Positions 1 to 20,088 of a DNA stretch of 64,000 nt are shown here, piece after piece. Origin of the DNA: Pseudanabaena frigida (GTDB lineage Bacteria > Cyanobacteriota > Cyanobacteriia > Pseudanabaenales > Pseudanabaenaceae); contig QBML01000016.1 in assembly GCA_003242085.1 (NCBI GenBank), positions 19,950 through 83,949 on the forward strand. Direction: 5' to 3'. The position numbers were made by a program, and so were the translations under genes. A model generated the notes under the pieces. It was given only the letters and a program-made list of their open reading frames with translations. It did no database searches and had not been told where the DNA came from. Within the stretch, counting starts at the first letter, position 1, and each line of letters starts with the position of its first letter.

Positions 1-1482
1 AGGTAAAGCAATGCGATCGACCTTGAGATTAATATTAAGAGGCAAAGCATCTAACTGCATGAACATATTAGGGATCATGTAGTCAGGCAATTTAGACATA
101 AGAAAGCGACGAATGTCGGGGATAGAAAATTCTCCTTGGTGTAAAACGACATAAGCAACAAGCCCCTTTTCCCCCGAATCAAGATCGCAAGAGCCTACTA
201 CGCCATCTTTAACACCAGGAGCGCGGCGCAAGAATGTTTCAATTTCATTCAACTCAATCCGAATTCCACGCAACTTAATTTGGAAATCAGAACGCCCTAA
301 AACTTCAAGATTGCCATCTGCATCAAAACGCCCTAAGTCACCTGTCCGATAAAAACGAACTCCATCAATCGTAATAAACTTGGTTTGAGTCAACTCATCA
401 CGATAGAGATACTCCTTGGCTATGCCAGCCCCACCAATGTAAATTTCACCAGTGCTTCCTATCGGCACTATACTTTGATCTTCGTCGTACAGTCTTATTG
501 ATACATTATTGAATGGTGTTCCAACCAAACTTTTAGCAATATCCGCTTGTCTGGGAACCGCATAAGTACAAGCCATACAACTGGATTCACTACAGCCATA
601 AATCACAAAGATTTCCGCATCTTGAAAAACTTTCTTCAATCTATCGAGAATATCCACAGGAACGAGATCGCCGCCCGTGGAGATGTGTCTAAGCTTTTGA
701 AATTGTTGCGGAGCTATTTGTTCTTGTTCGATATAAGACAATAAAGCCCTGAGCAAACTTGGTCCAGCATGAATTGCTGTGATCTGCTCCAAGACAAGAG
801 CCATTCGTTTAAAATCTAAAATCCGATCGCGTTCGAGAATAAGCAGAGTTCCACCCGCAACAAGTGGAGAGAGCAGCTCGAAGAATGAAATACTAAAAGT
901 AAAACGAGCGATCGCCGGCATCACATCCTGACTATGAAAGCCATATTTCTCACGAGCAACAAGGATGTAATGCAACAAATTACTATGACTAACCATCACC
1001 CCCTTCGGCTTTCCAGTGGTACCCGAAGTATAAATAATATAAGCCGTTTGCTGAGGGGAAATCTTACATTCGAGAGATTGAGAGGGCAGAGCATGAATTT
1101 TATGCCAATCCCGATCAATACAGAAAACATGTTCTGAAGAGACAGGCAGATTAGGCAAAAGGTGAGTCTGAGTAATCAAAACCGAAGGTTGAACCTCAGC
1201 CAAGATATCAGCCAGACGCTCCAATGGATAGCTAGGTTCAAGGGGGACATAAACACCACCGACTTTAAAAATTGCCAATAAACAAACAGCAACCTCAAGC
1301 GATGGGTCTAGACAGACAGCCACCCGATCATCGTTACTGACACCAAGACAGTTTAAGTAATAAGCGAGTTGATTAGTGTACTCGAGAAGTTGACCATAAG
1401 TAGACGAACTGTGTTTGAATCTCAGCGCGATCGCATCAGGATGGCTAATCGCATGTGCTTCTATATACTGATGGATCAACAT
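1..1482 (-). CDS. NRPS, N-terminal adenylation domain (second copy, runs off left edge)
   Basis: The first ~494 codons of a second nonribosomal peptide synthetase; the gene continues beyond base 1. On my reading it is base-for-base the same as the first adenylation domain of the NRPS at 2069-7918 (offset 6436). It therefore shares the A-domain P-loop near residue 152, the altered A4 motif (FSISFFE, Asp missing) near residue 196 and the unusual YGCSES motif near 296. The ATG at 1482 is chosen by analogy with 7918. What follows the A domain cannot be seen. It could be a full paralogue, a truncated copy or a different synthetase sharing a loading domain. Its upstream neighbour is a stump of the dioxygenase gene. 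Confidence 0.85.
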   Translation of the reverse strand, partial: MLIHQYIEAHAISHPDAIALRFKHSSSTYGQLLEYTNQLAYYLNCLGVSNDDRVAVCLDPSLEVAVCLLAIFKVGGVYVPLEPSYPLERLADILAEVQPSVLITQTHLLPNLPVSSEHVFCIDRDWHKIHALPSQSLECKISPQQTAYIIYTSGTTGKPKGVMVSHSNLLHYILVAREKYGFHSQDVMPAIARFTFSISFFELLSPLVAGGTLLILERDRILDFKRMALVLEQITAIHAGPSLLRALLSYIEQEQIAPQQFQKLRHISTGGDLVPVDILDRLKKVFQDAEIFVIYGCSESSCMACTYAVPRQADIAKSLVGTPFNNVSIRLYDEDQSIVPIGSTGEIYIGGAGIAKEYLYRDELTQTKFITIDGVRFYRTGDLGRFDADGNLEVLGRSDFQIKLRGIRIELNEIETFLRRAPGVKDGVVGSCDLDSGEKGLVAYVVLHQGEFSIPDIRRFLMSKLPDYMIPNMFMQLDALPLNINLKVDRIALP

Positions 1483-1607
1483 AAGCAATTGGGTGTAGTC
1501 ATTAAGCCGTCTATGCTTTACCTTACCTTAAAGTTTCATATATTACAAGAAACCTTTTGAAAGACTTGCAACACGAGCTTTTTAAAGAGGTTGTTGGCTT
1601 CTAAAAA
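1..1607. repeat. 1.6-kb direct repeat, left copy
   Basis: Matches 6437-8043 with no mismatch that I could find. It covers the first NRPS adenylation domain and about 125 bp upstream of its start codon. The left boundary is unknown because it reaches base 1. On the right, identity stops abruptly in a short A-run near 1607, and only patchy similarity continues to about 1660. Confidence 0.9.
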
Positions 1608-1665
1608 GTAGAAAAACACTGCGTATGTAGGGGGGCTAATTGTGCAAGTGAAGAAAGCTAAATGC

Positions 1666-1749
1666 TTAAAGTGAAATTGTAGTTTGCTTAGCATTTCCTA
1701 GATAGAATTCAAGACGATCGAACCGTTTGTTATTATAGGAATCATTCAT
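1666..1749 (-). pseudogene. 5' remnant of the HPPD-like dioxygenase gene
   Basis: About 25 codons that align with the start of the intact dioxygenase at 8280-9365 (both begin MNDSYNNKRFD and share LEFY.GN.KQ), after which the frame ends in a stop. The rest of the gene, including both metal-binding halves, is absent. The homology also runs upstream through the GAGG ribosome site and promoter region to about 1935, at roughly 80% identity. The stump sits directly in front of the partial NRPS at 1-1482, in the same order as the intact pair. It is too short to be functional. Confidence 0.8.
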
Positions 1750-1935
1750 GATGGAACCTCTTCTACACAAAAGAATATAAATTTTCTTTCTTTGGTGAGG
1801 TGCAAGATAGAGGCTTAAATTCTTTACAGCATTTACTTGTTTGTCCGATCGAACAAACAGCAACCATATAGAAAGTGAAAATCATTCTAGAAGGAAATAA
1901 ATAAACAGTAAGTTGCTTTCGATCGAGAAGTAACT
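1680..1935. repeat. diverged copy of the dioxygenase 5' region
   Basis: Similar to about 9300-9550: start of the dioxygenase gene plus its leader and promoter region. Many substitutions and small indels separate the two, in contrast to the mismatch-free 1.6-kb repeat only ~70 bp away. Confidence 0.75.
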
Positions 1936-1977
1936 TATAAATTGTCTTATCCTCAAGTCGATTTTATATTAGATGCG

Positions 1978-2027
1978 ACCATAGTCATAAAGAAGCCGCT
2001 AATTAGCGGCTTCTTTATGACTATGGT
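1978..2027. terminator. perfect 50-bp palindrome downstream of NRPS
   Basis: Two 25-nt arms with no unpaired loop bases, centred on AATT. It lies 41 bp past the NRPS stop and is placed to end the NRPS transcript and to shield the promoter region of the next unit on its left. Confidence 0.75.
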
Positions 2028-2068
2028 TGTAAATAAAAGACATTAGGCAATAATTTTTTAAGGTATTG

Positions 2069-5000
2069 TCAGGACAAAGTTTCAATTCGCTGAATAATTT
2101 CACCTACTTCCGCACAATAAGGGTCTTCCATCAAATCAAGATGATCGCACTTGATTTTGGAAACATGAACCTCCCCCTGAAGTAGTTTTCCCCAACCATT
2201 GAAAGGGAATATCCAAGACAGATCTAATTGTTTGAGATCTCTTCTTCCATGAACGATGGTTTCGTAGCCAATAATTAATAAGATCCGACCCTTATATTTG
2301 CTGGGATTATATTCAATAATGGGCTTCGTTAGTAAATCAACAGATTGAACGATCTCGGATTTGCTACCCTTCTCAATCTCATTTTTACTTATAAAGACTT
2401 TACGCTTAATAGTCCTTTGTTTAATATAGTGAAACTTGTCCTCAAAAGATAGTTTTGAGAGATTATACAAATGGAATCTGAGAGTCCCGATTTGAGAGTT
2501 TATATAATTAAACAAGTTATAAATTTTAGATTTCCCTGATACATCAATCAGAGTGAGTAGACTTACCTTTTTTCCTAACTTTTGGAGCTGCTGAACCATT
2601 TCCATCGCTACTAAACCATTATAACACCACCCTCCTAATGAATATGAACTAGAAGGTTGCACGGAAAGCAACTCGTCTACTAATAAAGATGCTATTACTG
2701 AAATATAGTCATGATGTGAATCCATGGATGGAGATAGACTGGCACCTGGCATCACATATAGAGGCTGCTTGAGTTTGAGCCTTTTACCAGTTTTAACTTC
2801 TCCTATCCATACAAAAGGTTGCGATGAAGCTTGAAATTCAGGCAAAATACTAATTATCAAACCACGTTTACCAATTCGTAAACCTTTCTTGCCAGCACTA
2901 TGAGCTAACAACGCTCGATAGTCATCCATACTAAGCCCTAGATTGGATTCATCGTCGTGGACTGTCTCTGTTGATTTTTCGCGAATCAATTGGGCAATTT
3001 GGGCAATAGTGCTAATTTGAAAGAAACCTCTTAAAGGAAGCTGATATTGGAAGATTTTCTCTATCTCAGATACTAAATGCACAGATAAAAGTGAATTTCC
3101 TCCTAAATCAAAAAAATTGTCATAAATCCCAATAGAATTATGAGCTAAGAGTTTTTTCCATATATCAACTAACTTAAGTTCTACTTCGTCTTGAGGTGAA
3201 ATAAATTCTTTGTTGAGTTGTTGTATTGATTTATCAGGGGTCGGCAAAGCCCTACGGTCAACTTTCCCATTAGGAGTAAGCGGGAGCGCGTCAAGGAAAA
3301 CAAAAGCCGAAGGAATCATAAATGAAGGCAAATCCTTAGACAGGAAATCACGTAGTTCTGCATGTGTAAGTATTTGCTCATTTTGAGGAATAATATAAGC
3401 AACTATGCGCCTATCATCTGGAATGTCTTCACGAACAATTACAGCAAGCTCGCGAATTTTTGGATGTTTTGCGAGTATGACTTCAATCTCGCCCAATTCA
3501 ATACGGAACCCACGAATTTTTACTTGATTGTCAATGCGGCTAATATACTCGATTTCTCCATTAGGTAGATGCTTAGCAATATCACCTGTTCTGTAAAGTC
3601 TAGAATTGGGATAATTGCTAAATGGATTAGCGATAAATTTCTCACTGTTTAAGTCTGGACGATTTAGATAGCCTCTAGCTAGGCATACTCCACCAATATA
3701 CAATTCACCTCTAACACCAATAGGCACTGGTTGGAGATATTGGTCAAGTATATAGGTTTGGGTATTATCAATGGGTTTTCCAATCAACATCATTGCTCTT
3801 TGTCTTTCGTCTAGAGAGTCACTGACAACCTCATAAGTCGTAGCCCATACAGTAGCTTCGGTAGGTCCATACATATTCCAGAGAGAAGAGACTCTATCTA
3901 AAAGCTGATTGGCTAGTCCTTGCGATAATGCTTCACCCCCACAAAGAACCTTGAGAGCAGAACGCCCATTCCATCCTGCGGCTAGAAGTAGTCGCCAAGT
4001 TGCTGGAGTAGCTTGCATGACGGTAGCACTAGAATTTTTAAGCAACGACAACAGGCTTATCCCATCAACTGCTACTTCCCGACTAACTAAGACGACTTTA
4101 GCTCCTACTATTAATGGAAGATAAAGCTCTAATACAGCAATATCAAAAGAAATAGTTGTAACTGCTAGGAGAGTATCTTTGTGGGTTAAACTAGGTGATC
4201 GTTTCATGGAGTTCAAAAAGTTGGTGACTGCACCATGAGGTATTTGTACTCCTTTAGGTTTTCCTGTAGATCCAGAAGTGTAAATGACGTATGCTAATTT
4301 TTCTAGTGTTATTTCAATGATTAGATTCTTATCTTCTTCTTGAATGATATCTTTCCAGTCAGCATCCAAACAAATTACTTTTGCTTGATGTTTGGGTAAC
4401 AGGGTTAGTAAGTTTTGCTGCGTCACAAGTACTGTCATTTGTGAATCTGACAACATGTAAGAAAGTCTTTCTGTTGGATAGGCTGGATCTAGAGGAACGT
4501 ATGCTCCTCCTGCTTTAAGAATGCCTAATAGCCCTATTACCATTTCCAACGAGCGTTCTATACAAATCCCAACTAGTACGTTTGGAGAAACTCCTAGATT
4601 TCTTAGATAATGTGCCAGTTTATTTGCTCGATGATTCAGCTCTTGATAAGTAATCTGCTCTTGTTTAAATACTACGGCAATTGCTTCTGGAGTCAATTTT
4701 GCCTGTTTTTCAAATAGCTGATGTATGCATTTGCGAGGATATTCTATCTCTGTGTTATTCCATTCTTTTAATAATTTTACCCTTTCTTTTGCTGTCAGCA
4801 GAGGTAGTTCAGAGATTGGCTGTTTTGGATTATCAATAATTCCTTCTACTAAGGTATGAAAATTTTCAATCATCTGCTTTACAGTTGATCGATTCAACAG
4901 GTCACGATTGTATTCAAAATACCCACGTAACCCTTCTTCTGTTTCTTCCATTACAAGAGTGAGGTCATACAGTGCTGTTCCTCTTTGTACATCCAGAGGC

Positions 5001-7918
5001 GTTATCTCTAAATCAGCTAAATCCGAAAGTTCTACAGGAGCATTCTGCAATACAAACATTATCTGAAAAATTGGCAAATAGCTGAGGCTACGATTGGGAC
5101 ATAGTTCTTCAACTAGCTTCTCAAATGGTAGATCCTGATGAGCGTAAGCACTCAAAGAAGTTTGTCGGACTTTCTGAATTAAATCTATAAAAGTTGGATT
5201 GCCTGCCAAATCAATCCGTAATGCTAGTAAATTAATAAAGCAGCCAATCAGAGATTCAAGTTCTTTTCGATTGCGGTTAGCAATGGGAGTTCCAATCACT
5301 AAATCTTGTTGCCTACTATAGCGTGATAGCAATATTGCAAAAGCTGTCACTAGAGACATAAACAGGGTTGACCCTGTGCGTTGGCTGACGATCTTGAGTT
5401 GACGGGTGAGTCCTGAATCGATCGTAAAGAACTCAGTTCCACCTCGATAAGTTTGAATTGCTGGACGAGGGCGATCTAGTGGTAACTCTAACAATGGTGG
5501 TGCATAGGCTAATTGCTGTCTCCAGTAAGCTAATTGCTGACTAAGAATTTCCTCAGTAAGCCACTGTTGGTGCCAATGTACGTAGTCAACATACCGAATA
5601 TGTGGCTTTTCTAGTGGAGGAGATACCCGATCCTGGCGAAAATCTGTATATATTATAGATAGTTCTTTCTGTAAAATTTTAAGCGACCAATCGTCGGCAA
5701 CAATGTGGTGCAAGGTTAACAGTAAAATGTTTGTGGTCTCGGACGATCGAATTAAGGTTGCGCGGATAGGTAAAAATTCTATAAGGTTGAATGGTTGATT
5801 TGCTTCTTTCCATGCTAATTCGTGAATTTCTGTCGTTTGTTTTTCCTCTGTTAGTGACTCTATATTTATAATCCGTAAAGGCAAAGGTTGCGGCGGTAGA
5901 ATTTGTTGAACCGGCATACCATCTACTATTGGAAAGATCGTCCGTAAGGATTCATGTCTATACAGAATTTCGGTCAAACTTTTCTCTAAGGTTGGAATGT
6001 GCAAAGCTCCCACAATTTTGAAAACGAGTGAAATGTTATAAGCAACACATTCTTCTTCCAATTGTGTCAGAAACCATAATTGTCTCTGGGATGACGAAAG
6101 TGGAAAGTATTGACAATTCTGTGCGATCAAATCTAGCCTCAAACGGGAATTAACCTTGTTTTGCTTTGAGGTTTTGAGATGATCCGCTAATGTAGCGACT
6201 GTCGGTTTTTCAAACAATTGGCTGATAGGAATCTCTAAGTCCAGAGCATCTTGTAATTGATAGATGACTTGAGCAGCCATCAGCGAATGCCCGCCTAGTT
6301 CAAAAAAATTGTCATAAACACTGATTTTTTCCAGCTTTAGAGTCTTTGCATAGATATCTGCAAGGATTTCTTCTATCTCATTTCTAGGTGGTACGTAGAC
6401 GGTATCGTGCAAAACAGCAGTAGCTAAAGTCGGTGCAGGTAAAGCAATGCGATCGACCTTGAGATTAATATTAAGAGGCAAAGCATCTAACTGCATGAAC
6501 ATATTAGGGATCATGTAGTCAGGCAATTTAGACATAAGAAAGCGACGAATGTCGGGGATAGAAAATTCTCCTTGGTGTAAAACGACATAAGCAACAAGCC
6601 CCTTTTCCCCCGAATCAAGATCGCAAGAGCCTACTACGCCATCTTTAACACCAGGAGCGCGGCGCAAGAATGTTTCAATTTCATTCAACTCAATCCGAAT
6701 TCCACGCAACTTAATTTGGAAATCAGAACGCCCTAAAACTTCAAGATTGCCATCTGCATCAAAACGCCCTAAGTCACCTGTCCGATAAAAACGAACTCCA
6801 TCAATCGTAATAAACTTGGTTTGAGTCAACTCATCACGATAGAGATACTCCTTGGCTATGCCAGCCCCACCAATGTAAATTTCACCAGTGCTTCCTATCG
6901 GCACTATACTTTGATCTTCGTCGTACAGTCTTATTGATACATTATTGAATGGTGTTCCAACCAAACTTTTAGCAATATCCGCTTGTCTGGGAACCGCATA
7001 AGTACAAGCCATACAACTGGATTCACTACAGCCATAAATCACAAAGATTTCCGCATCTTGAAAAACTTTCTTCAATCTATCGAGAATATCCACAGGAACG
7101 AGATCGCCGCCCGTGGAGATGTGTCTAAGCTTTTGAAATTGTTGCGGAGCTATTTGTTCTTGTTCGATATAAGACAATAAAGCCCTGAGCAAACTTGGTC
7201 CAGCATGAATTGCTGTGATCTGCTCCAAGACAAGAGCCATTCGTTTAAAATCTAAAATCCGATCGCGTTCGAGAATAAGCAGAGTTCCACCCGCAACAAG
7301 TGGAGAGAGCAGCTCGAAGAATGAAATACTAAAAGTAAAACGAGCGATCGCCGGCATCACATCCTGACTATGAAAGCCATATTTCTCACGAGCAACAAGG
7401 ATGTAATGCAACAAATTACTATGACTAACCATCACCCCCTTCGGCTTTCCAGTGGTACCCGAAGTATAAATAATATAAGCCGTTTGCTGAGGGGAAATCT
7501 TACATTCGAGAGATTGAGAGGGCAGAGCATGAATTTTATGCCAATCCCGATCAATACAGAAAACATGTTCTGAAGAGACAGGCAGATTAGGCAAAAGGTG
7601 AGTCTGAGTAATCAAAACCGAAGGTTGAACCTCAGCCAAGATATCAGCCAGACGCTCCAATGGATAGCTAGGTTCAAGGGGGACATAAACACCACCGACT
7701 TTAAAAATTGCCAATAAACAAACAGCAACCTCAAGCGATGGGTCTAGACAGACAGCCACCCGATCATCGTTACTGACACCAAGACAGTTTAAGTAATAAG
7801 CGAGTTGATTAGTGTACTCGAGAAGTTGACCATAAGTAGACGAACTGTGTTTGAATCTCAGCGCGATCGCATCAGGATGGCTAATCGCATGTGCTTCTAT
7901 ATACTGATGGATCAACAT
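2069..7918 (-). CDS. two-module nonribosomal peptide synthetase (A-PCP-C-A-PCP-TE)
   Basis: About 1949 aa from ATG 7918 (a TTG lies 6 bp upstream). Domain order: A1 (~1-500; P-loop TSGTTGKPKG near 152), PCP1 (LGGHSL near 543), C (~600-1040; HHIVADD near 738, with Asp replacing the usual Gly), A2 (~1060-1560), PCP2 (LGGNSL near 1607) and TE (~1690-1949). A1 has FSISFFE where amino-acid-activating domains have FDxS, so the Asp that binds the alpha-amino group is missing; it probably loads a non-amino acid (aryl, hydroxy or keto acid). Its pocket reads by eye S-I-F-H-I-T-I-C-M. A2 keeps the Asp, and its pocket D-I-L-Q-L-G-M-V-W resembles a glycine code. The TE elbow is GWCYNG, with Cys in place of Ser. 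The predicted product is a small acyl-dipeptide-like compound. The upstream dioxygenase may supply the starter acid; that is inference. Confidence 0.93.
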   Translation of the reverse strand: MLIHQYIEAHAISHPDAIALRFKHSSSTYGQLLEYTNQLAYYLNCLGVSNDDRVAVCLDPSLEVAVCLLAIFKVGGVYVPLEPSYPLERLADILAEVQPSVLITQTHLLPNLPVSSEHVFCIDRDWHKIHALPSQSLECKISPQQTAYIIYTSGTTGKPKGVMVSHSNLLHYILVAREKYGFHSQDVMPAIARFTFSISFFELLSPLVAGGTLLILERDRILDFKRMALVLEQITAIHAGPSLLRALLSYIEQEQIAPQQFQKLRHISTGGDLVPVDILDRLKKVFQDAEIFVIYGCSESSCMACTYAVPRQADIAKSLVGTPFNNVSIRLYDEDQSIVPIGSTGEIYIGGAGIAKEYLYRDELTQTKFITIDGVRFYRTGDLGRFDADGNLEVLGRSDFQIKLRGIRIELNEIETFLRRAPGVKDGVVGSCDLDSGEKGLVAYVVLHQGEFSIPDIRRFLMSKLPDYMIPNMFMQLDALPLNINLKVDRIALPAPTLATAVLHDTVYVPPRNEIEEILADIYAKTLKLEKISVYDNFFELGGHSLMAAQVIYQLQDALDLEIPISQLFEKPTVATLADHLKTSKQNKVNSRLRLDLIAQNCQYFPLSSSQRQLWFLTQLEEECVAYNISLVFKIVGALHIPTLEKSLTEILYRHESLRTIFPIVDGMPVQQILPPQPLPLRIINIESLTEEKQTTEIHELAWKEANQPFNLIEFLPIRATLIRSSETTNILLLTLHHIVADDWSLKILQKELSIIYTDFRQDRVSPPLEKPHIRYVDYVHWHQQWLTEEILSQQLAYWRQQLAYAPPLLELPLDRPRPAIQTYRGGTEFFTIDSGLTRQLKIVSQRTGSTLFMSLVTAFAILLSRYSRQQDLVIGTPIANRNRKELESLIGCFINLLALRIDLAGNPTFIDLIQKVRQTSLSAYAHQDLPFEKLVEELCPNRSLSYLPIFQIMFVLQNAPVELSDLADLEITPLDVQRGTALYDLTLVMEETEEGLRGYFEYNRDLLNRSTVKQMIENFHTLVEGIIDNPKQPISELPLLTAKERVKLLKEWNNTEIEYPRKCIHQLFEKQAKLTPEAIAVVFKQEQITYQELNHRANKLAHYLRNLGVSPNVLVGICIERSLEMVIGLLGILKAGGAYVPLDPAYPTERLSYMLSDSQMTVLVTQQNLLTLLPKHQAKVICLDADWKDIIQEEDKNLIIEITLEKLAYVIYTSGSTGKPKGVQIPHGAVTNFLNSMKRSPSLTHKDTLLAVTTISFDIAVLELYLPLIVGAKVVLVSREVAVDGISLLSLLKNSSATVMQATPATWRLLLAAGWNGRSALKVLCGGEALSQGLANQLLDRVSSLWNMYGPTEATVWATTYEVVSDSLDERQRAMMLIGKPIDNTQTYILDQYLQPVPIGVRGELYIGGVCLARGYLNRPDLNSEKFIANPFSNYPNSRLYRTGDIAKHLPNGEIEYISRIDNQVKIRGFRIELGEIEVILAKHPKIRELAVIVREDIPDDRRIVAYIIPQNEQILTHAELRDFLSKDLPSFMIPSAFVFLDALPLTPNGKVDRRALPTPDKSIQQLNKEFISPQDEVELKLVDIWKKLLAHNSIGIYDNFFDLGGNSLLSVHLVSEIEKIFQYQLPLRGFFQISTIAQIAQLIREKSTETVHDDESNLGLSMDDYRALLAHSAGKKGLRIGKRGLIISILPEFQASSQPFVWIGEVKTGKRLKLKQPLYVMPGASLSPSMDSHHDYISVIASLLVDELLSVQPSSSYSLGGWCYNGLVAMEMVQQLQKLGKKVSLLTLIDVSGKSKIYNLFNYINSQIGTLRFHLYNLSKLSFEDKFHYIKQRTIKRKVFISKNEIEKGSKSEIVQSVDLLTKPIIEYNPSKYKGRILLIIGYETIVHGRRDLKQLDLSWIFPFNGWGKLLQGEVHVSKIKCDHLDLMEDPYCAEVGEIIQRIETLS

Positions 7919-8043
7919 AAGCAATTGGGTGTAGTCATTAAGCCGTCTATGCTTTACCTTACCTTAAAGTTTCATATATTACAAGAAACCTTTTGAAAGA
8001 CTTGCAACACGAGCTTTTTAAAGAGGTTGTTGGCTTCTAAAAA
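6437..8043. repeat. 1.6-kb direct repeat, right copy
   Basis: Right-hand member of the repeat at 1-1607. It covers A1 of the complete NRPS and its immediate upstream sequence. Its inner end (6437) falls at the end of the A1 domain only because the window begins there, so the true repeat may be longer. Confidence 0.9.
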
Positions 8044-8214
8044 AGACCAAAGTACTATAGGCAATTTTAATTGTACAAGTGAAGAAAGCTAAATACCTAA
8101 GAAAAATGCAATAGAAAGTATTGTAAAAATACAATAGAAGGTCTTATCCAATAAAAGAATTAACAATTAACCAATAGCTTCTAAGTAGCTGAGCGCCATT
8201 AAATATAAAAAATA

Positions 8215-8253
8215 AAAGCCTATGGGACACTTGCAATGTGCCCCATAGGCTTT
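8215..8253 (-). terminator. terminator of the dioxygenase gene
   Basis: Hairpin with 12-bp outer arms (AAAGCCTATGGG and complement), a shorter inner stem and a T-run in the minus direction. It lies 27 bp beyond the dioxygenase stop, so the dioxygenase and the NRPS are probably separate transcripts. Confidence 0.7.
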
Positions 8254-8279
8254 GACTCTGATTTTTAATTATCCGCTAC

Positions 8280-9365
8280 TTATAAGTTTCCACGGCGCTC
8301 TTGTTCGTTTTCAAGGGCAACAAATAAAGACTTAAAGTTTCCTGCTCCAAATCCTTTTGAACCGTGTCGTTCAATAATCTCAAAAAATAAAGTAGGTCGA
8401 TCGCCAACGGGCTTAGTAAAAATCTGCAATAGGTAACCATCGCGATCGCGATCTACGAGAATTCCAAGCTCTGCGAGTTGTTCTACAGGAAGAGCTGTTT
8501 CTCTGACCCAATTTTCTAGATCCTCATAATAGGCTTTGGGAATGGGAAGAAACTCAACACCAGATTTTTTCAGATGGATAACTGTTTGAACAATATCATC
8601 AGTGCAGAGGCCAATATGCTGAATTCCAGGCCCGTAATGGAAATCTAGATATTCTTGAATCTGAGATTTGCGTTTGCCAGTTGCTGGTTCATTTATATTG
8701 AGGAAAGTTTGATCGTTACACCGTAATACCTTTGACATTAAAGCAGAATATTCTGTTGAAATAGCACGATCGTCGAAATGCATATGCATACCGAATCCAA
8801 GTGCTTCGACAAAGAAATCGCACCATCGATCCATTTCACCTAGTTCGACATTGCCGACTACATGATCGATATGCTTCAATCCGACTGCGTTAAATGCGTT
8901 TGTGGATCGAGCAACAAAACCTGGTGCGAAAACTCCAGAGTATTCGCTGCGATCTATGAATTTGATTAATACGTCACCATAGGCATGAACAGCTGCAAAC
9001 TTCAATACACCATATTCATCGTCTTGTTCAGTTGGTGGCATGTAGCTAATAGCACCACGTGAAACTGCTAGATTGTATGATTCAACAACATCAGGAACTT
9101 CAAGAGCAACGATCGCAACTGTATCTCCATGTCTCATGACGCTCTGAGATATAGAATGCTCGGGACTGAATGACGAACTCAAAACAAAACGGATATCTCC
9201 TTGTTCCATTAGATAAGAGCTTACCTTCCGTTCACCTGTCTCTAGTCCGCAATAGGCTGTATTTTTAAAGCCAAAACAACTAGCGTAGTAATGCGCTGCT
9301 TGTTTGGAATTTCCTACATAGAACTCGAGGTGATCGAACCGTTTGTTATTATAGGAATCATTCAT
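8280..9365 (-). CDS. 4-hydroxyphenylpyruvate dioxygenase family protein (HPPD or hydroxymandelate synthase)
   Basis: 361 aa from ATG 9365, which has GAGG 8 nt upstream; a TTG 21 bp further out is less likely. It is a two-fold VOC Fe(II) enzyme. Visible family blocks include EYSALMSKV, the NINEPA...KRKSQI.EYL stretch, GIQHIGL (second metal His), DRD.DGYLLQIFTKP, LFFEIIERHG (metal Glu) and the C-terminal GFGAGNFKSLF. HPPD makes homogentisate from 4-hydroxyphenylpyruvate; the sister enzyme HMS makes 4-hydroxymandelate from the same substrate. I cannot tell them apart by eye. It could serve tocopherol synthesis, but its position beside the NRPS and the stump beside the second NRPS suggest a dedicated role. 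It has its own terminator. Confidence 0.88.
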   Translation of the reverse strand: MNDSYNNKRFDHLEFYVGNSKQAAHYYASCFGFKNTAYCGLETGERKVSSYLMEQGDIRFVLSSSFSPEHSISQSVMRHGDTVAIVALEVPDVVESYNLAVSRGAISYMPPTEQDDEYGVLKFAAVHAYGDVLIKFIDRSEYSGVFAPGFVARSTNAFNAVGLKHIDHVVGNVELGEMDRWCDFFVEALGFGMHMHFDDRAISTEYSALMSKVLRCNDQTFLNINEPATGKRKSQIQEYLDFHYGPGIQHIGLCTDDIVQTVIHLKKSGVEFLPIPKAYYEDLENWVRETALPVEQLAELGILVDRDRDGYLLQIFTKPVGDRPTLFFEIIERHGSKGFGAGNFKSLFVALENEQERRGNL

Positions 9366-9539: not shown

Positions 9540-9607
9540 GCAAGGTGTATACCTAATTTGCATAATTGATATTGATATCTACTATGCAAATTAGGTATAC
9601 ACCTTGC
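9540..9607. repeat. long perfect inverted repeat between glycan cluster and dioxygenase
   Basis: 24-nt arms (9540-9563 and 9584-9607) that pair perfectly around a 20-nt AT-rich loop holding a repeated ATTGATAT. It lies 175 bp upstream of the dioxygenase start and 290 bp past the end of the SMR gene. There is no clear T-run. It may end readthrough from the nine-gene cluster or be a regulatory site for the dioxygenase. The homology with the left stump region ends at about this point. Confidence 0.8.
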
Positions 9608-9677: not shown

Positions 9678-9707
9678 AGTTATACATAAGTTATACATAA
9701 GTTATAC
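9678..9707. repeat. 11-bp tandem repeat tract (AGTTATACATA)
   Basis: Two full AGTTATACATA units and a partial third. The same tract occurs at 19844-19873. The two lie just outside the two ends of the amino-sugar gene block. Confidence 0.85.
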
Positions 9708-9901
9708 GCTATAGTTATATTTCCCTAAGGGAAATATCAAATTATGCAGAATTTACCTTGTTTTACTAAGCGCCAGAAACCCTAACACCCCTACCAAATA
9801 TACTTAATGGCTGATTTAACAGTGCTAAAAATAATCTTGAATCCTTACTGTTGTAAATAAATTTACTCACGAATTCAATATCGATGATTATGTAAAAATA
9901 G

Positions 9902-10246
9902 CTACAGTTCTAGAGATGTTAAGACTAAGCCAGAAAAAATTAGTCCCATACCTACGATGTACCAATTAGTAATGCGATCGCCTAGAAATAAAGCTGAAAA
10001 AAGCGTCACTAAAATATATGTTAAAAAAGTGAATGGATACGCTTTGGAAAGAGGAATAAACCGCAAAGCCAACACCCAAAGCAAAGTACCTATTCCATAA
10101 AGCAGTAATCCCATAATTAATGCAGGATTTATCCAAGTGAGAATATTTTCTCCATTGATTAAAACAGCACCTTTTTTGAATAGAATATGCCCCCCAGTCG
10201 TTACTAGAGATATTGCCAAGAGTAAAAGTAAATTTCTATCGAACAT
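9902..10246 (-). CDS. SMR/EamA-type small membrane protein, ArnE-like flippase candidate
   Basis: 114 aa with four hydrophobic segments (about 5-25, 38-60, 66-88 and 92-112), the layout of small multidrug resistance and ArnE/ArnF proteins. The ALRFIPLSKAYPF stretch is the region where this superfamily shows A..(I/L)PLS.AY. In the Arn pathway an ArnE/F pair moves undecaprenyl-phosphate aminoarabinose across the membrane. It is the last gene of a cluster with a membrane GT2, a NodB deacetylase and a GT-C transferase, so a lipid-linked-sugar flippase is more likely than a drug pump. Only one subunit is visible. Confidence 0.7.
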   Translation of the reverse strand: MFDRNLLLLLAISLVTTGGHILFKKGAVLINGENILTWINPALIMGLLLYGIGTLLWVLALRFIPLSKAYPFTFLTYILVTLFSALFLGDRITNWYIVGMGLIFSGLVLTSLEL

Positions 10247-10280
10247 ATTGATTTTATGAATTGACTAAAGATTCAAAGAT

Positions 10281-10315
10281 GATGATGAGTTTAAGCATTA
10301 CTTAAACTCATCATC
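10281..10315 (-). terminator. hairpin between methyltransferase and SMR gene
   Basis: 15-bp perfect arms around a 5-nt loop (CATTA), 9 bp past the methyltransferase stop and 35 bp before the SMR gene start. No strong T-run, so it may attenuate rather than stop transcription. Confidence 0.55.
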
Positions 10316-10323
10316 GTATGTAA

Positions 10324-11181
10324 TTAAACCAATTTTGACTTTTGGAATAAAATCCAAAATAGATCCTCAGCAGGATATGGAATGGCAAGATTGTCGGGAA
10401 TTATGCCTAGTATCTTATTTATGAGCCGACCAAAACGAGATTGCTCAAGTTTATATCGTAGAAGAGATTTAACATGGGCACCATTAATCCATTTTGCAGG
10501 TCTACCGCTAGCAACTTTATAAAATCCAAATTGAGCGGCTAATTGTTCTAAATCTTTAAGAGAAAACCAATGTAAAACACTAGGTGGACTGTATTCATGC
10601 CAATTTTGACCGCAAATTCTAGCAGTTAAGCTTTCTCGATTCCAGGTTTCTATTAGCCAATAACCATTAGGATTAGTCATCCTTGCTGCCGTTTCCAGAG
10701 CTTTGTGCAAATCGTAAAAGTGCGAAATGACTTGGATCATGGTAATCAAATCAAAGCGATCGCTACTATTAAAATTTTCTAAAGAACCAACTTCTACTGG
10801 TAAACCTAGTGATTGTTGGGCGTAGTTGACCATTTGGCTATTTGGTTCAATCCCTTTTCCCTGCCAGCCACCATCAGTAAGCCCTTGTAATATAAATCCT
10901 GCCGCTGCACCTACATCTAATAGAGTTCCAGTGTCAACATAGCGCTTGAGAAGGTTAGCGTACCTTTTCCCATGCTCTCTTAGTAGTTTTGCCTCACCTA
11001 TATAATTGGGATAGCCAGATCCACCGCTATTAAAGTAATGTTCACCATAAACTGTCTGCGTATGAGTTTCCGAAGGAACAATATTGGCGAATTGATGACC
11101 GCATTTTGAGCAGTAATGAATTGGGCAGTCATACTTTGAGAATAAATAAACGCTAGGACTATTGCAAATTGGACAATTCAT
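10324..11181 (-). CDS. class I SAM-dependent methyltransferase with N-terminal zinc ribbon
   Basis: 285 aa. An N-terminal CPIC...CSKCG pair (residues ~3-28) looks like a zinc ribbon, as in several sugar C-methyltransferases. The SAM-binding motif LLDVGAAAGFILQGL lies near residues 87-101, followed by the acidic IEP and the LITMIQVISHF segment. The substrate is unknown; its place among amino-sugar genes suggests a sugar or lipid-linked sugar. It lies 70 bp downstream of the deacetylase gene, same strand. Confidence 0.8.
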   Translation of the reverse strand: MNCPICNSPSVYLFSKYDCPIHYCSKCGHQFANIVPSETHTQTVYGEHYFNSGGSGYPNYIGEAKLLREHGKRYANLLKRYVDTGTLLDVGAAAGFILQGLTDGGWQGKGIEPNSQMVNYAQQSLGLPVEVGSLENFNSSDRFDLITMIQVISHFYDLHKALETAARMTNPNGYWLIETWNRESLTARICGQNWHEYSPPSVLHWFSLKDLEQLAAQFGFYKVASGRPAKWINGAHVKSLLRYKLEQSRFGRLINKILGIIPDNLAIPYPAEDLFWILFQKSKLV

Positions 11182-11251
11182 TTATTTTTCATTGCAGAAG
11201 TTTTACAAAATTGAAGGTTTTTAGATAAATCTTAGATAAATATATTTGCCC

Positions 11252-12253
11252 TTATTCTTCAACTGTAATAGCGCTATGGAAAAAGTGAGGTTGCACAGAA
11301 GAAAGTTTTGTTTGACGCTTTTTGATTGCTTCAGCATGTTGAGACATAGGTACGACTAAATAATGCTTCGAGAGGATTTGTAAAACTTTGCTAACCATAG
11401 CTAATTTTTTGTAGCTAGGTTGATTCATAGCTGGGAAAAAGGCTAATTCAGGTACATCCTCTCCACCCATAAAATCTAATGGATGCAGTAGAAGAGATGG
11501 TTGAACTCGCATGAGACGACACAGAGCGATCGCAAATCTAAAATAAAGCAAAGCTAAAGTTTGTGAGAAAACTCCAAGATATAGTAGATAACTAACGTGA
11601 ATCGGGATTTTAAAGATAGGCATGGTCGTTACAGGAATCTCGATTAAATCCCCCATCAATCTCCATTTGTAAGGCTTAAGTGGTCGAAATCCCTCTTGAA
11701 ATTTGCCAAATAATCCTTTGCGTTTTTCCATCTCTTCATCACTAAGCTTACTCGTCATGAAGTAATAGGCACGAGCTAAAGGCCCTAGGAATGTAGGGAA
11801 TGTCGATGCATCATACTCGTAGCCACGTCGAGCTAATACACGCAAAACTGTAGAAGATAGACTGAATCCGGGACCGCGAAATCCATTGGGACGACTACCA
11901 GTCGCTTTCTCTATGTGTTCTTCAGCGATCGCAAGCTCGCGATCTACATCATCTTCAGAATAGAGATGAAGCCAGGGCTCATGATTGAACGAATGGTTAC
12001 CGATCTCATGACCTGAATCAGTAATGGCTCTTAGAGCAGCATGGTTCTTTTCTAGTGCTGCATCTTGCCCAACAATGAAGAAAGTAATCTTTATATTTCT
12101 CTCTTCCAAAAACTTTAGTACGCGTGGAACCACAATATCTAGGTAAGAAGGAAACTCCTCCCAACCTTTATCTCCATGAGTTTTCATGTAAGACCATTGG
12201 TTGTCAAGGTCAAGAGAGACGCTAGCTATAAATTTAGATGTTGGACTCTTCAT
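11252..12253 (-). CDS. polysaccharide deacetylase (NodB family)
   Basis: 333 aa. The NodB motifs are visible: SLDLDNQW near the start supplies the catalytic/metal Asp, GHEIGNHSFNHEPW carries the HxxxH metal pair, and FRGPGFS matches the RxPxG motif. The catalytic set looks complete. These enzymes remove N- or O-acyl groups from sugars; ArnD, which deformylates undecaprenyl-phosphate aminoarabinose, is in the same fold family. With a membrane GT2 and an SMR protein nearby, trimming of a lipid-linked sugar is plausible. It also resembles deacetylases in generic exopolysaccharide loci. Confidence 0.85.
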   Translation of the reverse strand: MKSPTSKFIASVSLDLDNQWSYMKTHGDKGWEEFPSYLDIVVPRVLKFLEERNIKITFFIVGQDAALEKNHAALRAITDSGHEIGNHSFNHEPWLHLYSEDDVDRELAIAEEHIEKATGSRPNGFRGPGFSLSSTVLRVLARRGYEYDASTFPTFLGPLARAYYFMTSKLSDEEMEKRKGLFGKFQEGFRPLKPYKWRLMGDLIEIPVTTMPIFKIPIHVSYLLYLGVFSQTLALLYFRFAIALCRLMRVQPSLLLHPLDFMGGEDVPELAFFPAMNQPSYKKLAMVSKVLQILSKHYLVVPMSQHAEAIKKRQTKLSSVQPHFFHSAITVEE

Positions 12254-12321
12254 TTGACTATTAGATTATTAGATGGTTTATGAACTTGAATTATATATTT
12301 TAGGCTTCTTTAAGGATATAT

Positions 12322-13788
12322 CTAATCGGTCTGAGCACTAATTTTAGGTATCTTCATGAATACAATGCAGACTATCAGGATAACTATTGATATATTTGGC
12401 AAAAGGCCTATAGTTATTGACTGAATATAATTATTATTATAGCCAAATAAATAGCTAAATAAACCGTAAGAAATACTTGTGTGAACCATAATACAAAACA
12501 CGGAAAGATTCCAAAACAGTTTGTTGTCTAAATCCAGAATTTGCCAAGAATAAAATTTGTGTACTAGTAAAAATAATACTGAAAAAATCAATAATGAGTT
12601 ATTTGTATTTTGCGCATAATTGCATGAAAGAGTTAGAAGAGTTATAAGAGAAATGTCATGCAAAAAAAATATTTTTTTTGCATTTAGAAATTTGTTTGAA
12701 TTAGTCAAATCTGAATATTTGCCAGATAACACTATCTTCCAGAAAACGAGAATGATTAATGATATTTTGCAAGTGCTAGATATGATAGTTGCAATATTAG
12801 AAAATTGTCTTTCTTTGATCAGTCTAAATCCGAGTACGCCAATATCTATTCGAGAGGTTGATAAATATTCCGATCCATATAAGTTGTTGTCAATATTTGT
12901 ATTTATTGCATTTTGCCATGGCTGGATAAAATGAGAATATACATCTATTAGATTAAAAGGATTGATGCCAGCCATCGTTAATCCACAGGCTGATATTGCT
13001 GCTGCCATTCCTAATGAGATAAAAAATATCTTGAACTTTCTTTTTGCTAAAAGATATATGAAAAGAAAAATGCACAGGGTGGGTTTGATTGTGCTGAGGG
13101 CAAGAAATATAGAGGCAGTCAGTTGACGATTTTTCTTTAAAAAAACAACGAACCAAACTATAAATGTAATAGTAATTGTTGAAATGTTTCCTATAAAAAC
13201 ATCGAATGTCAATCCATATAAAGATAGGCAAATAATTATGACAACTTTTGTAATCACTCTATATTCTTTGATGAGGTAATATATTCCTAAACAATAGAAA
13301 AATATTGAAGCAATACTAACTAAGCAAAACAAAATAGATGCAGTATCAATATTCATCCATCCAAGGGGCATTAAAATTGGAAATATATTAGGTAAATAGG
13401 GAAAATTCAGAATAATGTTTGTATTAGTTGGATCGGGCATTCCTAAATAAGGATTAGACTGTTTGTAAATTGCTGCACCAACAGCGTAGAAGAACTTGAA
13501 ATCTTCATAACTTTTATTAATATGATCTTGGATGATATTGATAAAAATCATAAACAGAAAATAGCTTGTTGGCAATATAAGAATTGATTTAATTAATTGT
13601 TTATGTCTACTAAAAACTATATACAAACTTGATAAAGATGAAATTTTGAACATCTGTATCCCAAGGGGATCTTCAAATTCATTCAGTTCTTTTTGTGTTG
13701 AACTAGCTATTAAATCTAGTATGCAAGCTAAAGAAAGATAGTAGAATACAGAAATAAATAATATTTTTAAAGCTAGAATTAGTGTCAT
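12322..13788 (-). CDS. polytopic GT-C glycosyltransferase, GT87/DUF2029-like
   Basis: 488 aa with roughly ten hydrophobic segments. EDFKFFYAVGAAIYKQSNPY (near residues 95-115) has the form seen in GT87/DUF2029 proteins: acidic residues after the first helix followed by a loop ending in NPY. Such enzymes use polyprenyl-phosphate sugars outside the membrane. In this cluster it would fill the ArnT-like transfer step. The gene is markedly AT-rich and contains no GCGATCGC, unlike its neighbours, which hints at separate acquisition. A 104-codon open frame on the other strand (12620-12934) looks like a by-product of this base composition. Confidence 0.72.
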   Translation of the reverse strand: MTLILALKILFISVFYYLSLACILDLIASSTQKELNEFEDPLGIQMFKISSLSSLYIVFSRHKQLIKSILILPTSYFLFMIFINIIQDHINKSYEDFKFFYAVGAAIYKQSNPYLGMPDPTNTNIILNFPYLPNIFPILMPLGWMNIDTASILFCLVSIASIFFYCLGIYYLIKEYRVITKVVIIICLSLYGLTFDVFIGNISTITITFIVWFVVFLKKNRQLTASIFLALSTIKPTLCIFLFIYLLAKRKFKIFFISLGMAAAISACGLTMAGINPFNLIDVYSHFIQPWQNAINTNIDNNLYGSEYLSTSRIDIGVLGFRLIKERQFSNIATIISSTCKISLIILVFWKIVLSGKYSDLTNSNKFLNAKKIFFLHDISLITLLTLSCNYAQNTNNSLLIFSVLFLLVHKFYSWQILDLDNKLFWNLSVFCIMVHTSISYGLFSYLFGYNNNYIQSITIGLLPNISIVILIVCIVFMKIPKISAQTD

Positions 13789-13831
13789 ATTGCATTTTGA
13801 ATGTAAATTTGATAAAAATTAAATACTAAAA

Positions 13832-15154
13832 TTATAAAATCATTGAGGGTATAATATTTTCTGCAAGCTGAATTGTTTCATTTACATTTAGCGTTCCATT
13901 AAAGATATGGGCAGAATTAAGAATAAAAACGTTAGGAATTGACGTTTTGATGGCGGGTAATTTTTCTGAGTAGTTTAAAGTAGCGATCGCTAATACATGA
14001 CGTACTCTAGAGACCTGAAAGCATAAGACATCACTGCGTTCAAATCTCGGATACATATGCACGAGTGCGGTTATAAATTTTTCTTCGAGTTCGCGATCGC
14101 TTAATTCAAAAGCTGGATCGTTTGGAACGACATACTTGGGTAAATATACGAGAGTATGTCCTCGAAACTGAGCGCGATCTACCAAAGTCGTCATCTCAAT
14201 CACACCAGTAAATGGAACCCATGTGTCAGTTATATTGGTAACATAAAACTTGGAAAGTGGCTTCTTTAAGAGTACTGAAGCGCAAATAATCCCCTGATAT
14301 TCAATATCGTTGAGTCTTCTGATTTCATCTTCTGAAAGTCCCGAACATACTTTTGCGGCAACTGGTGCGGGTACAGTTAAGACAAGGCGATCGAATTCTT
14401 CATAAGAACCATTTTCGAGCTCGACATTCGTAACAGTTCCATTATTTGTCTCAAATGATTCGACATTAATGATTTTTTGGTTTAGTCTAATCGAAACATT
14501 CAATTCTAATAGTACTTCGGCAAAACGCTCAAAAATACGATTATATCCACCAGAAAGATAACCAAATAGTTCTTTCTTTAAACCAGTACGTCTTGCTGCA
14601 TATAATCTAGCGATAATTGCCCATATAAAAGAAGCTGATGCTTTTTTGTAGTTTTCACCTAGTTTGGATCTCAGTAAAGGCAACCAAATCTTTTCAAATG
14701 TATGCTTCCCAGACCAGCGAGTCAGCCATTCGCTAACAGATATTTTTTCTAGTTTTTTCCAATCTTTAATTTTAGAACCATAAATGATGGTGAAAGCAAA
14801 GCGTAGTTTGTCAATCAAGTTGAGGGGGAAGAATCGTAAAAATTCGATCGCATTAGAAATCGAATAGAGCTTACCATCATTATAAAAACCTGTTTTCGTC
14901 TCGACCCATTGCATATCATGTTCTAAACCGAGTTCCTTAAGGAGCGATCTTAGATGTGTATCTGAAAGTAACGTAACGTGATAATGGCGATCCCAAACGA
15001 TGTCGCCTAACTGCCACGCATCTGCTAAACCACCTAAGCGATCGGAACTCTCAAATAAAGTTACCTGCTTGCCCTTTTTGGCTAGACGAAGGGCGAGGGT
15101 CATTCCTAGAATGCCACCACCAACAATGCCCCAACGCTCGGATTTAGATGCCAT
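13832..15154 (-). CDS. FAD/NAD(P)-binding amine-oxidase-fold oxidoreductase
   Basis: 440 aa. It opens with a Rossmann dinucleotide motif (GIVGGGILGMTLALRLA, residues ~9-25) and an FESSDRLGGL segment, the ADP-binding entry of the amine oxidase / protoporphyrinogen oxidase / UDP-galactopyranose mutase superfamily. The C-terminal end (FILNSAHIFNGTLNVNETIQLA) is the usual FAD-closing region. Close relatives occur in polysaccharide and lipid-linked sugar loci, generally with no defined substrate. It is not a clear UDP-galactopyranose mutase. It lies 43 bp upstream of the GT-C gene. Confidence 0.75.
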   Translation of the reverse strand: MASKSERWGIVGGGILGMTLALRLAKKGKQVTLFESSDRLGGLADAWQLGDIVWDRHYHVTLLSDTHLRSLLKELGLEHDMQWVETKTGFYNDGKLYSISNAIEFLRFFPLNLIDKLRFAFTIIYGSKIKDWKKLEKISVSEWLTRWSGKHTFEKIWLPLLRSKLGENYKKASASFIWAIIARLYAARRTGLKKELFGYLSGGYNRIFERFAEVLLELNVSIRLNQKIINVESFETNNGTVTNVELENGSYEEFDRLVLTVPAPVAAKVCSGLSEDEIRRLNDIEYQGIICASVLLKKPLSKFYVTNITDTWVPFTGVIEMTTLVDRAQFRGHTLVYLPKYVVPNDPAFELSDRELEEKFITALVHMYPRFERSDVLCFQVSRVRHVLAIATLNYSEKLPAIKTSIPNVFILNSAHIFNGTLNVNETIQLAENIIPSMIL

Positions 15155-15273
15155 AGTTCTTCAACTAGATTTATATAGGTTTGTTTTCGATCGCTTTGCA
15201 AAATACTCAAAAACAAATCTTGGTTTAAGAATGAGCATACCGCTATATTTATTTCGTTAATCAAAAGTTTACC

Positions 15274-15900
15274 CTAGCTGGGTGGAGTTAGCTCAGTAAC
15301 TTCTTTGTTTGAGATCGCATATTTTAAACCGCAAGCAGAACATTCGATCTCTTGCTCATCAACAGTTGTATCGGGTGGAAACCTCAATAACAATTGACCA
15401 CAGCGGCAGACACAACCAACTGATTTAGCTGGATGCCCGATCGCCAAATGAAAGTTAGGAACAGATTTAGTTACGAGCGAACCCATCCCAACCATTGCAA
15501 AACGTCCAATTGTCAGATCATTCCCAATGGTACAGGCTGCACCAATAGTTGCACCAGCCTGAACGAGGGTTGGCAAGGTATGCTCATCGGGATCGGAAGG
15601 TCGAAGCTTCTTGAGATCGCTAGTGGTTGCTCTTGGAAAGCGATCGTTAGTAAAGATGGTGCCTGCGCTAATCATCACGCCATCTTCAATAGTGACGGCA
15701 TTACAGATATACACAAAAGCATTGATCTTGACGCGATCGCCGATCTTTACACCATAGGCAATATATGTCTTTTCGCCAACAATGCATTCTTCTCCGATTT
15801 GTGTCGAATGACGAATATGCACGTTATCCCAGATGGAACTGCCTTCGCCAATGTTAACGTTTTCTTCAATGATTGCTGAGGGATGGATGCGAACTGCCAT
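15274..15900 (-). CDS. hexapeptide-repeat acyltransferase, WbpD-like, with C-terminal Cys cluster
   Basis: 208 aa from ATG 15900, which has AGGA upstream; a start 21 bp further out is possible. The first ~170 residues are imperfect [LIV]G-x4 hexapeptide turns of a left-handed beta-helix (ENVNIGEGSSIWDNVHI, GATIGAACTIGNDLTIG). That is typical of WbpD, which N-acetylates the 3-amino group of UDP-sugar intermediates. The C-terminal ~40 residues hold CVCRCG...CSACG, probably a zinc site, as in a subset of the family. With the adjoining Gfo/Idh and DegT genes it forms the WbpB-WbpE-WbpD triad for 3-acylamino sugars. Confidence 0.85.
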   Translation of the reverse strand: MAVRIHPSAIIEENVNIGEGSSIWDNVHIRHSTQIGEECIVGEKTYIAYGVKIGDRVKINAFVYICNAVTIEDGVMISAGTIFTNDRFPRATTSDLKKLRPSDPDEHTLPTLVQAGATIGAACTIGNDLTIGRFAMVGMGSLVTKSVPNFHLAIGHPAKSVGCVCRCGQLLLRFPPDTTVDEQEIECSACGLKYAISNKEVTELTPPS

Positions 15901-15974
15901 AGGTTTATCCTGTCGAAGCATTCATTTTGATTTTCCCAAAATGAATGCTAAAGATCTTTATTTAGAATGAATTG

Positions 15975-19630: not shown

Positions 19631-20088
19631 GCTTTTGTATCCAGATAATCTAGGTTTTGAAAAAGCTTTTGCCTTTGTTGGGGAATGAGTTCTTAATTTA
19701 AATCGGAAGATTCCATTCAGTCCAGAAACTCATTAATTCACTAGCATAAAATTCTGTATTTCTATTTTGATTTTAGGTAAATCATATAAATTAACCTTGC
19801 AATAATATGTTTGCTGAGAAATAACAAAAAATCAATAGATTAAAGTTATACATAAGTTATACATAAGTTATACGTCTAACACTATATATACGTAGAAGCT
19901 TAAGTAGTTAAATGTGTTTAATTCGCGAACGAAATTTTGTGATTTTGATCGCTGATACTAGTGACAACGATCGCTTATTTAGTGAGATAAAGATCGCTTG
20001 TTTTATACATGTCATATCACTAGATGTGTGAGTAAATAGCAGCATAATATATGCACAATTTATAAGTCTGCTGAAAGGGGGAGAGATT
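19631..20088. promoter_or_regulatory. upstream region of the amino-sugar gene block
   Basis: About 460 bp of AT-rich DNA. It should contain the minus-strand promoter of the nine-gene block and the plus-strand promoter of the small gene at 20089. It holds the second AGTTATACATA tract. No clear operator was recognised. Confidence 0.4.
19844..19873. repeat. 11-bp tandem repeat tract (AGTTATACATA), second copy
   Basis: Same 30-nt structure as 9678-9707: two full units and a partial third, in the same orientation. It lies ~215 bp upstream of the first gene of the amino-sugar block. Confidence 0.85.

Follow-up and report, generated by a model that had tools for sequence, protein, structure and literature searches.

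RalA/EchA, the fungal atromentin and polyporic acid synthetases and the cyanobacterial shinorine NRPS-like enzyme share a compact layout, in which an adenylation (A) domain is followed by a peptidyl carrier protein (PCP) and a thioesterase (TE). The α-keto-acid A domain of StsA carries Ile in place of Asp235 and Met in place of the Pro of the A5 motif (PMC11253843). A domains for 4-hydroxyphenylglycine (Hpg) have the pocket code DIYHLGLLCK (PMC9113097), and in A1 of Tcp9 the 4-OH of Hpg forms a hydrogen bond with a His of the pocket (PMC11253843). Here, we describe a locus of Pseudanabaena frigida (GCA_003242085.1, contig QBML01000016.1; the window is the whole stretch analysed, 64,000 nt from 19,950 to 83,949) in which a gene of the 4-hydroxyphenylpyruvate dioxygenase (HPPD) family precedes two nonribosomal peptide synthetase (NRPS) genes that begin with the same unusual A domain, A1. 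We propose, with about an even chance of being right, that the dioxygenase supplies the acid loaded by A1, so that the two would form the starter cassette of a cyanobacterial pathway from 4-hydroxyphenylpyruvate that is conserved and, it seems, not yet described. Our literature searches, which left subscription papers and known-cluster databases outside, returned no such layout; an earlier preliminary description of the locus had known of none either.

On the minus strand, the HPPD-family gene (8280–9365) is followed by NRPS-A (2069–7924) and then by NRPS-B, which exits the window leftward. The preliminary description had let the first synthetase extend to position 1482, which turns out to be the start codon of the second. 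Its other structural claims stand: the dioxygenase gene lies upstream of the synthetase, and a Pfam scan of NRPS-A recovered every domain that had been named (AMP-binding and PP-binding twice, Condensation and Thioesterase once) and, as had been claimed, no ketoreductase (KR). NRPS-A comprises 1951 codons from a TTG at 7924, with a likely ATG at 7918, and is organized as A1-PCP-C-A2-PCP-TE (C, condensation domain). All its domains are on the minus strand: A1 at 6410–7912, PCP1 at 6176–6364 by the same scan, the C domain at 4769–6106 with its HHIVADDW motif at 5687–5710, A2 at 3227–4729, PCP2 at approximately 2960–3157, and the TE at 2072–2857.

A1 carries two hallmarks of A domains for substrates other than amino acids. 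Asp235 is absent and replaced by Ser in the segment FSISFFE (7313–7333), which had been noticed before in place of FDxS, and the A5-motif Pro is replaced by Cys (YGCSE, 7022–7039), a change that had not been mentioned before; the predicted starter without an amino group is thereby supported at both positions. Among 208 A-type domains in the loci read, some of them partial, redundant or not from NRPSs, this Ser/Cys pair is restricted to the A1 family. Reading the ten-residue pocket codes by anchored spacing, our script returned SIFHSGICMK for 16 domains: the two of our own genome (G000), those of G412 and G396, and those of 12 of the 13 loci in a second cyanobacterial family (f15). The same code occurs in G129 and G426, where H278 was placed by alignment, and, read by hand from the protein, in the A1 of G464, which is 43% identical and has YGSSE as its A5 motif. 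Relatives with the near-invariant code are 58–86% identical. Because the code and the A5 Cys or Ser recur across identities of 43–86%, they are not chance features of one sequence. In the A-domain tree, built without L230 and the mis-framed rows, the A1 family forms one clade with support 100/100.

The Hpg code is presumably the closest published code to that of A1, and we take the pocket His of Tcp9 to be the equivalent of position 278. From these residues we infer that A1 probably loads a hydroxylated aryl acid without an amino group, and the pocket would argue against an ordinary amino acid, whose activation the preliminary description had named as counter to its proposal. Another A-domain family without Asp235 occurs in L063 (10032–15233), L098 and L115; its code starts with SSRD, and its A5 motif in L063 is YGQTE.

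The dioxygenase is an HPPD-family protein by score (TIGR01263, 409 bits against a cut-off of 277), and its best PDB match is the Streptomyces avermitilis HPPD (1t47). It keeps Glu394 and the equivalents of Ser267, Asn282, Gln293, Gln307, Gln379, Asn423 and Phe424 (the Phe424 codon starts at 8336). Two active-site changes set it apart: Asn replaces Pro280 of AtHPPD (8697–8699), and Gly replaces the Ala that follows QHI (8610–8612). Both changes are present in all 14 members of a monophyletic clade (support 100/100), which we refer to as the variant HPPDs, and in none of 29 other HPPDs fetched by a phylum-wide search, all of which keep Pro and Ala. The tocopherol-type housekeeping HPPDs of cyanobacteria, 34–37% identical to the variant HPPD, do not group with it in the tree; such grouping, combined with a lack of conserved synteny, would by the preliminary description have spoken against its proposal. 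The variant clade is sister to the HPPDs of L007–L009; among the loci of these HPPDs, L056 and L057 have adjoining homogentisate dioxygenase-like genes with weak hmgA scores, joined in L057 by a fumarylacetoacetase gene. With the L056 gene as query, itself a weak hmgA scorer, no homogentisate dioxygenase match was found in our genome at an E value of 1e-5, and the product of the variant HPPD is therefore not obviously catabolised. No second HPPD was found in this genome.

As hydroxymandelate synthase references we used three HPPD-family proteins from Streptomyces plasmids, identified by context; L247 was excluded because its frame is wrong. At positions 280, 282 and 424 these context-inferred synthases have Thr, Val/Ile and Ile, respectively, whereas Asn282 and Phe424 are present in 14 of 14 variant HPPDs. 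Loss of Pro280 is the sole trait at the three positions that the two groups have in common, and we therefore did not file the variant HPPD as a hydroxymandelate synthase. Substitutions at positions 280 and 424 have reportedly served to convert an HPPD into a mandelate synthase. Judging from its active site, it is possible that its product is changed from that of an ordinary HPPD.

Synteny of the variant HPPD gene with an A1 synthetase gene is likewise maintained, both among members of the genus and in family f15. Thirteen of the 14 variant HPPD genes adjoin an A1 gene: ten in f15 and those of G000, G412 and, judging by a contig end, G409. About 345 nt after the dioxygenase gene, this G409 contig breaks off with the first 11 nt of an A1-type start, ATGTTGATCCA, and two further G409 contigs begin inside C domains sharing 66% identity with the NRPS-A C domain, consistent with a collapsed repeat. 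Across the 26 genomes of the genus, the variant HPPD occurs in four and A1 in three, all within those four (3/4 versus 0/22; Fisher 0.0015, uncorrected for kinship). In f15, where 13 of 42 genomes carry A1, the variant HPPD gene stands head to head with A1 in 10 of 11 testable loci at a spacing of 0.65–1.03 kb; the remaining two A1 loci stop at contig ends. G464 is an independent pairing: a different, Pseudomonas-type HPPD that keeps Pro lies 78 nt downstream of its synthetase on the same strand. A GT2 glycosyltransferase-like gene lies 3′ of the f15 synthetase in most loci (L218, L221, L222, L224–L227). The element TATATGAAACTTTAAGGTAA is conserved before A1 start codons (window 7940–7985 and relatives), and it is also present in G396, where no variant HPPD is adjacent.

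Genes for precursor supply accompany the pair in f15. In several f15 loci the variant HPPD gene is followed by genes for a prephenate dehydrogenase and a DAHP synthase. L219 has, beside the dioxygenase, a DAHP synthase and a bifunctional chorismate mutase/prephenate dehydrogenase above cut-off (PRK11199, 283 bits), and a prephenate dehydrogenase was called in L218 and L225; for those of L221 and L224, and for every DAHP synthase other than that of L219, the match was made by eye alone. These genes point to a dedicated 4-hydroxyphenylpyruvate line and to this compound as the source. For the scytonemin cluster, the published account proposes a prephenate dehydrogenase as the supplier of 4-hydroxyphenylpyruvate in cyanobacteria (PMC3252866).

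Downstream of A1, the second half of NRPS-A suggests what the starter might be joined to. A2 has the code DILQLGMVWK, which is glycine-like by comparison with the reference code for glycine. It is glycine-like in most two-module f15 members too and differs in G396, G409 and L228. The TE has Cys in place of the usual Ser nucleophile (GGWCYNG, 2615–2635), as do the f15 TEs whose sequences were printed; G129 and G464 have Ser. We considered the Cys-type TE as a special trait and rejected it: the type is common to ordinary NRPSs of the genus and thus offers no argument by itself for dimerisation.

The domains, the pocket code, the linkage and the altered dioxygenase clade are read from the sequence, and on them we base a predicted reaction, substrate and set of products. 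4-Hydroxyphenylpyruvate, probably made in f15 by a DAHP synthase and a chorismate mutase/prephenate dehydrogenase encoded in the cluster, would be converted by the variant HPPD and O2 to a C6-C2 aryl acid. A1 would adenylate this amino-free acid and load it onto the PCP. NRPS-A would then couple it to glycine, and the Cys-type TE would release the conjugate. Because NRPS-B has no C domain, its TE would handle the unelongated acid and may free it, pass it to an acceptor or join two copies. The glycine conjugate of the preliminary description thus holds for NRPS-A as far as the A2 code goes and does not extend to the whole system, given the non-elongating NRPS-B with the same A1 and relatives with a different second amino acid. 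Its idea of a dioxygenase-supplied starter gains from the linkage and from the f15 supply genes; one of its candidates, 4-hydroxymandelate, is weakened because the variant HPPD keeps residues at which hydroxymandelate synthases differ. Homogentisate has an edge because those canonical residues are kept and because a canonical HPPD sits beside the same A1 code in G464, and we put it forward as a tentative assignment that may well be wrong. More tentative still, and in our estimate rather doubtful, is an extended version: the variant HPPD would have arisen from a catabolic HPPD, apart from the actinobacterial hydroxymandelate synthases, would give an outcome distinct from that of ordinary HPPD and would feed a dedicated A domain whose aryl-acid pocket is fixed. 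Cyanobacterial aryl-acid conjugates of a new class would result, and from one starter the tandem synthetases of our genome would make two products, one elongated and the other not.

Several observations weigh against a dioxygenase that feeds A1, or against homogentisate as the acid. The genus-wide concordance, as stated with its value, carries no correction for kinship. In G396, A1 and the variant HPPD lie about 0.7 Mb apart, with the dioxygenase beside another NRPS operon, and G129 and G426 have an A1-PCP-TE synthetase and no neighbouring dioxygenase. The thirteenth f15 locus, in G289 (L120:12323–14012), has an altered A1 code, SIFHFGLSLK, and contains, along with a prephenate dehydrogenase, a short VOC protein and an O-methyltransferase instead of the variant HPPD; ordinary HPPDs are encoded elsewhere in the genomes of G129 and G289. 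Our own locus is without a prephenate dehydrogenase. There, a terminator-like hairpin with a T run just 3′ of the dioxygenase gene (8215–8253, minus strand), also present at this place in G412 and G409, makes the dioxygenase and synthetase genes look like separate transcription units. Lastly, a pocket that resembles the Hpg code, in which the His binds a 4-OH, is a poor fit for homogentisate, which has none; by the pocket residues, 4-hydroxymandelate would fit better.

This last point leads to a variant that we count within the preferred reading and consider unlikely, namely that the dioxygenase is a convergent hydroxymandelate synthase and A1 loads 4-hydroxymandelate or its glyoxylate. The A1 code has I236, H278, G301 and an aromatic residue at 239 in common with the Hpg code (PMC9113097), the Hpg-type His contacts the 4-OH in Tcp9 A1 (PMC11253843), and Pro280 is lost in the variant HPPD as in the synthases. 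A prephenate dehydrogenase also lies near one Streptomyces reference, in whose operon an α-hydroxy acid oxidase and an aminotransferase are encoded. Yet neither a hydroxymandelate oxidase nor an Hpg aminotransferase was noticed at the loci read, the variant HPPD keeps Ser267 besides the two residues that differ in the three readable synthases, and the HPPD beside the same A1 code in G464 is of the Pseudomonas type with Pro kept. An equally unlikely course is that A1 loads an α-keto acid, 4-hydroxyphenylpyruvate or phenylpyruvate, in the manner of RalA/EchA or the fungal quinone synthetases, whose A-PCP-TE layout NRPS-B shares; NRPS-B would then dimerise the acid, and the variant HPPD would draw on the same pool or modify the product. 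A1 resembles StsA in lacking Asp235 and the A5 Pro, but residue 235 is hydrophobic in the known keto-acid domains (Val in fungi, Ile in StsA) and Ser in A1, the TE type is also that of ordinary peptide synthetases of the genus, and a dioxygenase consuming the starter would oppose its loading.

Two further explanations were weighed. The variant HPPD could be a self-resistance copy that Asn280 renders insensitive to an HPPD-inhibiting NRPS product: position 280 of AtHPPD lies within the inhibitor-contacting pocket (PMC6750108), and the change is clade-wide. We consider this improbable, given that our genome yielded no other HPPD to protect and that the prephenate dehydrogenase and DAHP synthase genes point to a supply role more than to resistance. 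Least probable is a coincidental neighbourhood at an NRPS hotspot. The sppA-like locus does hold different NRPSs in other members of the genus, and the G396 dioxygenase sits by another NRPS operon, but ten head-to-head f15 loci, in which the dioxygenase and the synthetase each belong to a clade of their own, speak against chance.

The conserved gene pair joins a dioxygenase clade, set apart by two invariant changes in the active site, to an A domain that has a nearly invariant pocket and lacks the amino-group contact. Which acid is made and loaded would bear on product choice in HPPD-family enzymes and could put a name to an orphan family of cyanobacterial metabolites.

The A1 domains of NRPS-A and NRPS-B are the same DNA: they lie within a 1607-nt repeat whose copies, 1–1607 and 6437–8043 (A1 plus 119 nt upstream), are 100% identical, an exactness that may be inflated by repeat resolution. 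NRPS-B (about 899 codons) is organized as A1-PCP-TE, with A1 at 1–1488 on the minus strand and the PCP and TE left of the window (G000:C7:18586–19839). It is interrupted by a 100-N scaffold gap, which is an assembly artefact, as the gap flanks overlap by exactly 55 nt. Before NRPS-B lies a 27-codon stub (1666–1749, minus strand) that matches the start of the dioxygenase gene. Between the stub and NRPS-A is an inverted repeat with 34-nt arms (1969–2036), a possible terminator. The simplest history would be that dioxygenase and synthetase were duplicated together in tandem and that one dioxygenase was later lost. The copies of A1 show that a module was duplicated recently, so that a long and a short synthetase now have a starter in common. 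We also considered mis-assembly of the tandem; exchanging both repeat joins would excise a circle, and the linear gene order therefore stands.

Around the cassette, an sppA-like gene (G000:C7:17755–18555, L003; also L061, L063, L064, L066 and L082) marks an NRPS hotspot: in several members of the genus, the NRPS genes beside it differ. A near-perfect palindrome with 33-nt arms (9540–9607), which resembles a miniature inverted-repeat transposable element, lies upstream of the dioxygenase gene. A 35-nt near-identical repeat occurs at 9678–9711 and 19844–19878, 10 kb apart. To the right, 9902–17009 holds polysaccharide-type genes (transporter, methyltransferase, deacetylase, GT87, FAD oxidase, hexapeptide and GFO/IDH proteins).

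Compared with described systems, the dioxygenase matches 4-hydroxyphenylpyruvate dioxygenase (TIGR01263, 1t47) in family score and in the residues of its network, and differs in Asn280, the Gly after QHI, the NRPS linkage and a genome in which no homogentisate dioxygenase was found. The hydroxymandelate synthase/Hpg operons of actinomycetes (L244 by context) resemble our loci in dioxygenase superfamily, in an NRPS context in some cases, in the nearby prephenate dehydrogenase and in the loss of Pro280; our loci differ in keeping Asn282 and Phe424, and no α-hydroxy acid oxidase or aminotransferase was noticed there. The scytonemin cluster, in the available part of its description, likewise carries its own prephenate dehydrogenase but has a thiamine diphosphate (ThDP) enzyme instead of an NRPS and an HPPD. 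The aeruginosin loading module AerA (A-KR-PCP) also provides an arylpyruvate-derived, non-amino-acid starter to a cyanobacterial NRPS, whereas NRPS-A has no KR and stands beside a dioxygenase. NRPS-B, finally, has the domain order of RalA/EchA, the fungal synthetases and the shinorine enzyme, and with RalA/EchA and the fungal synthetases it shares an A domain of the non-amino-acid kind; the A1 synthetases are set apart from these by Ser235, a distinct pocket code, a Cys-type TE, a linked dioxygenase and the existence of a two-module form as well.

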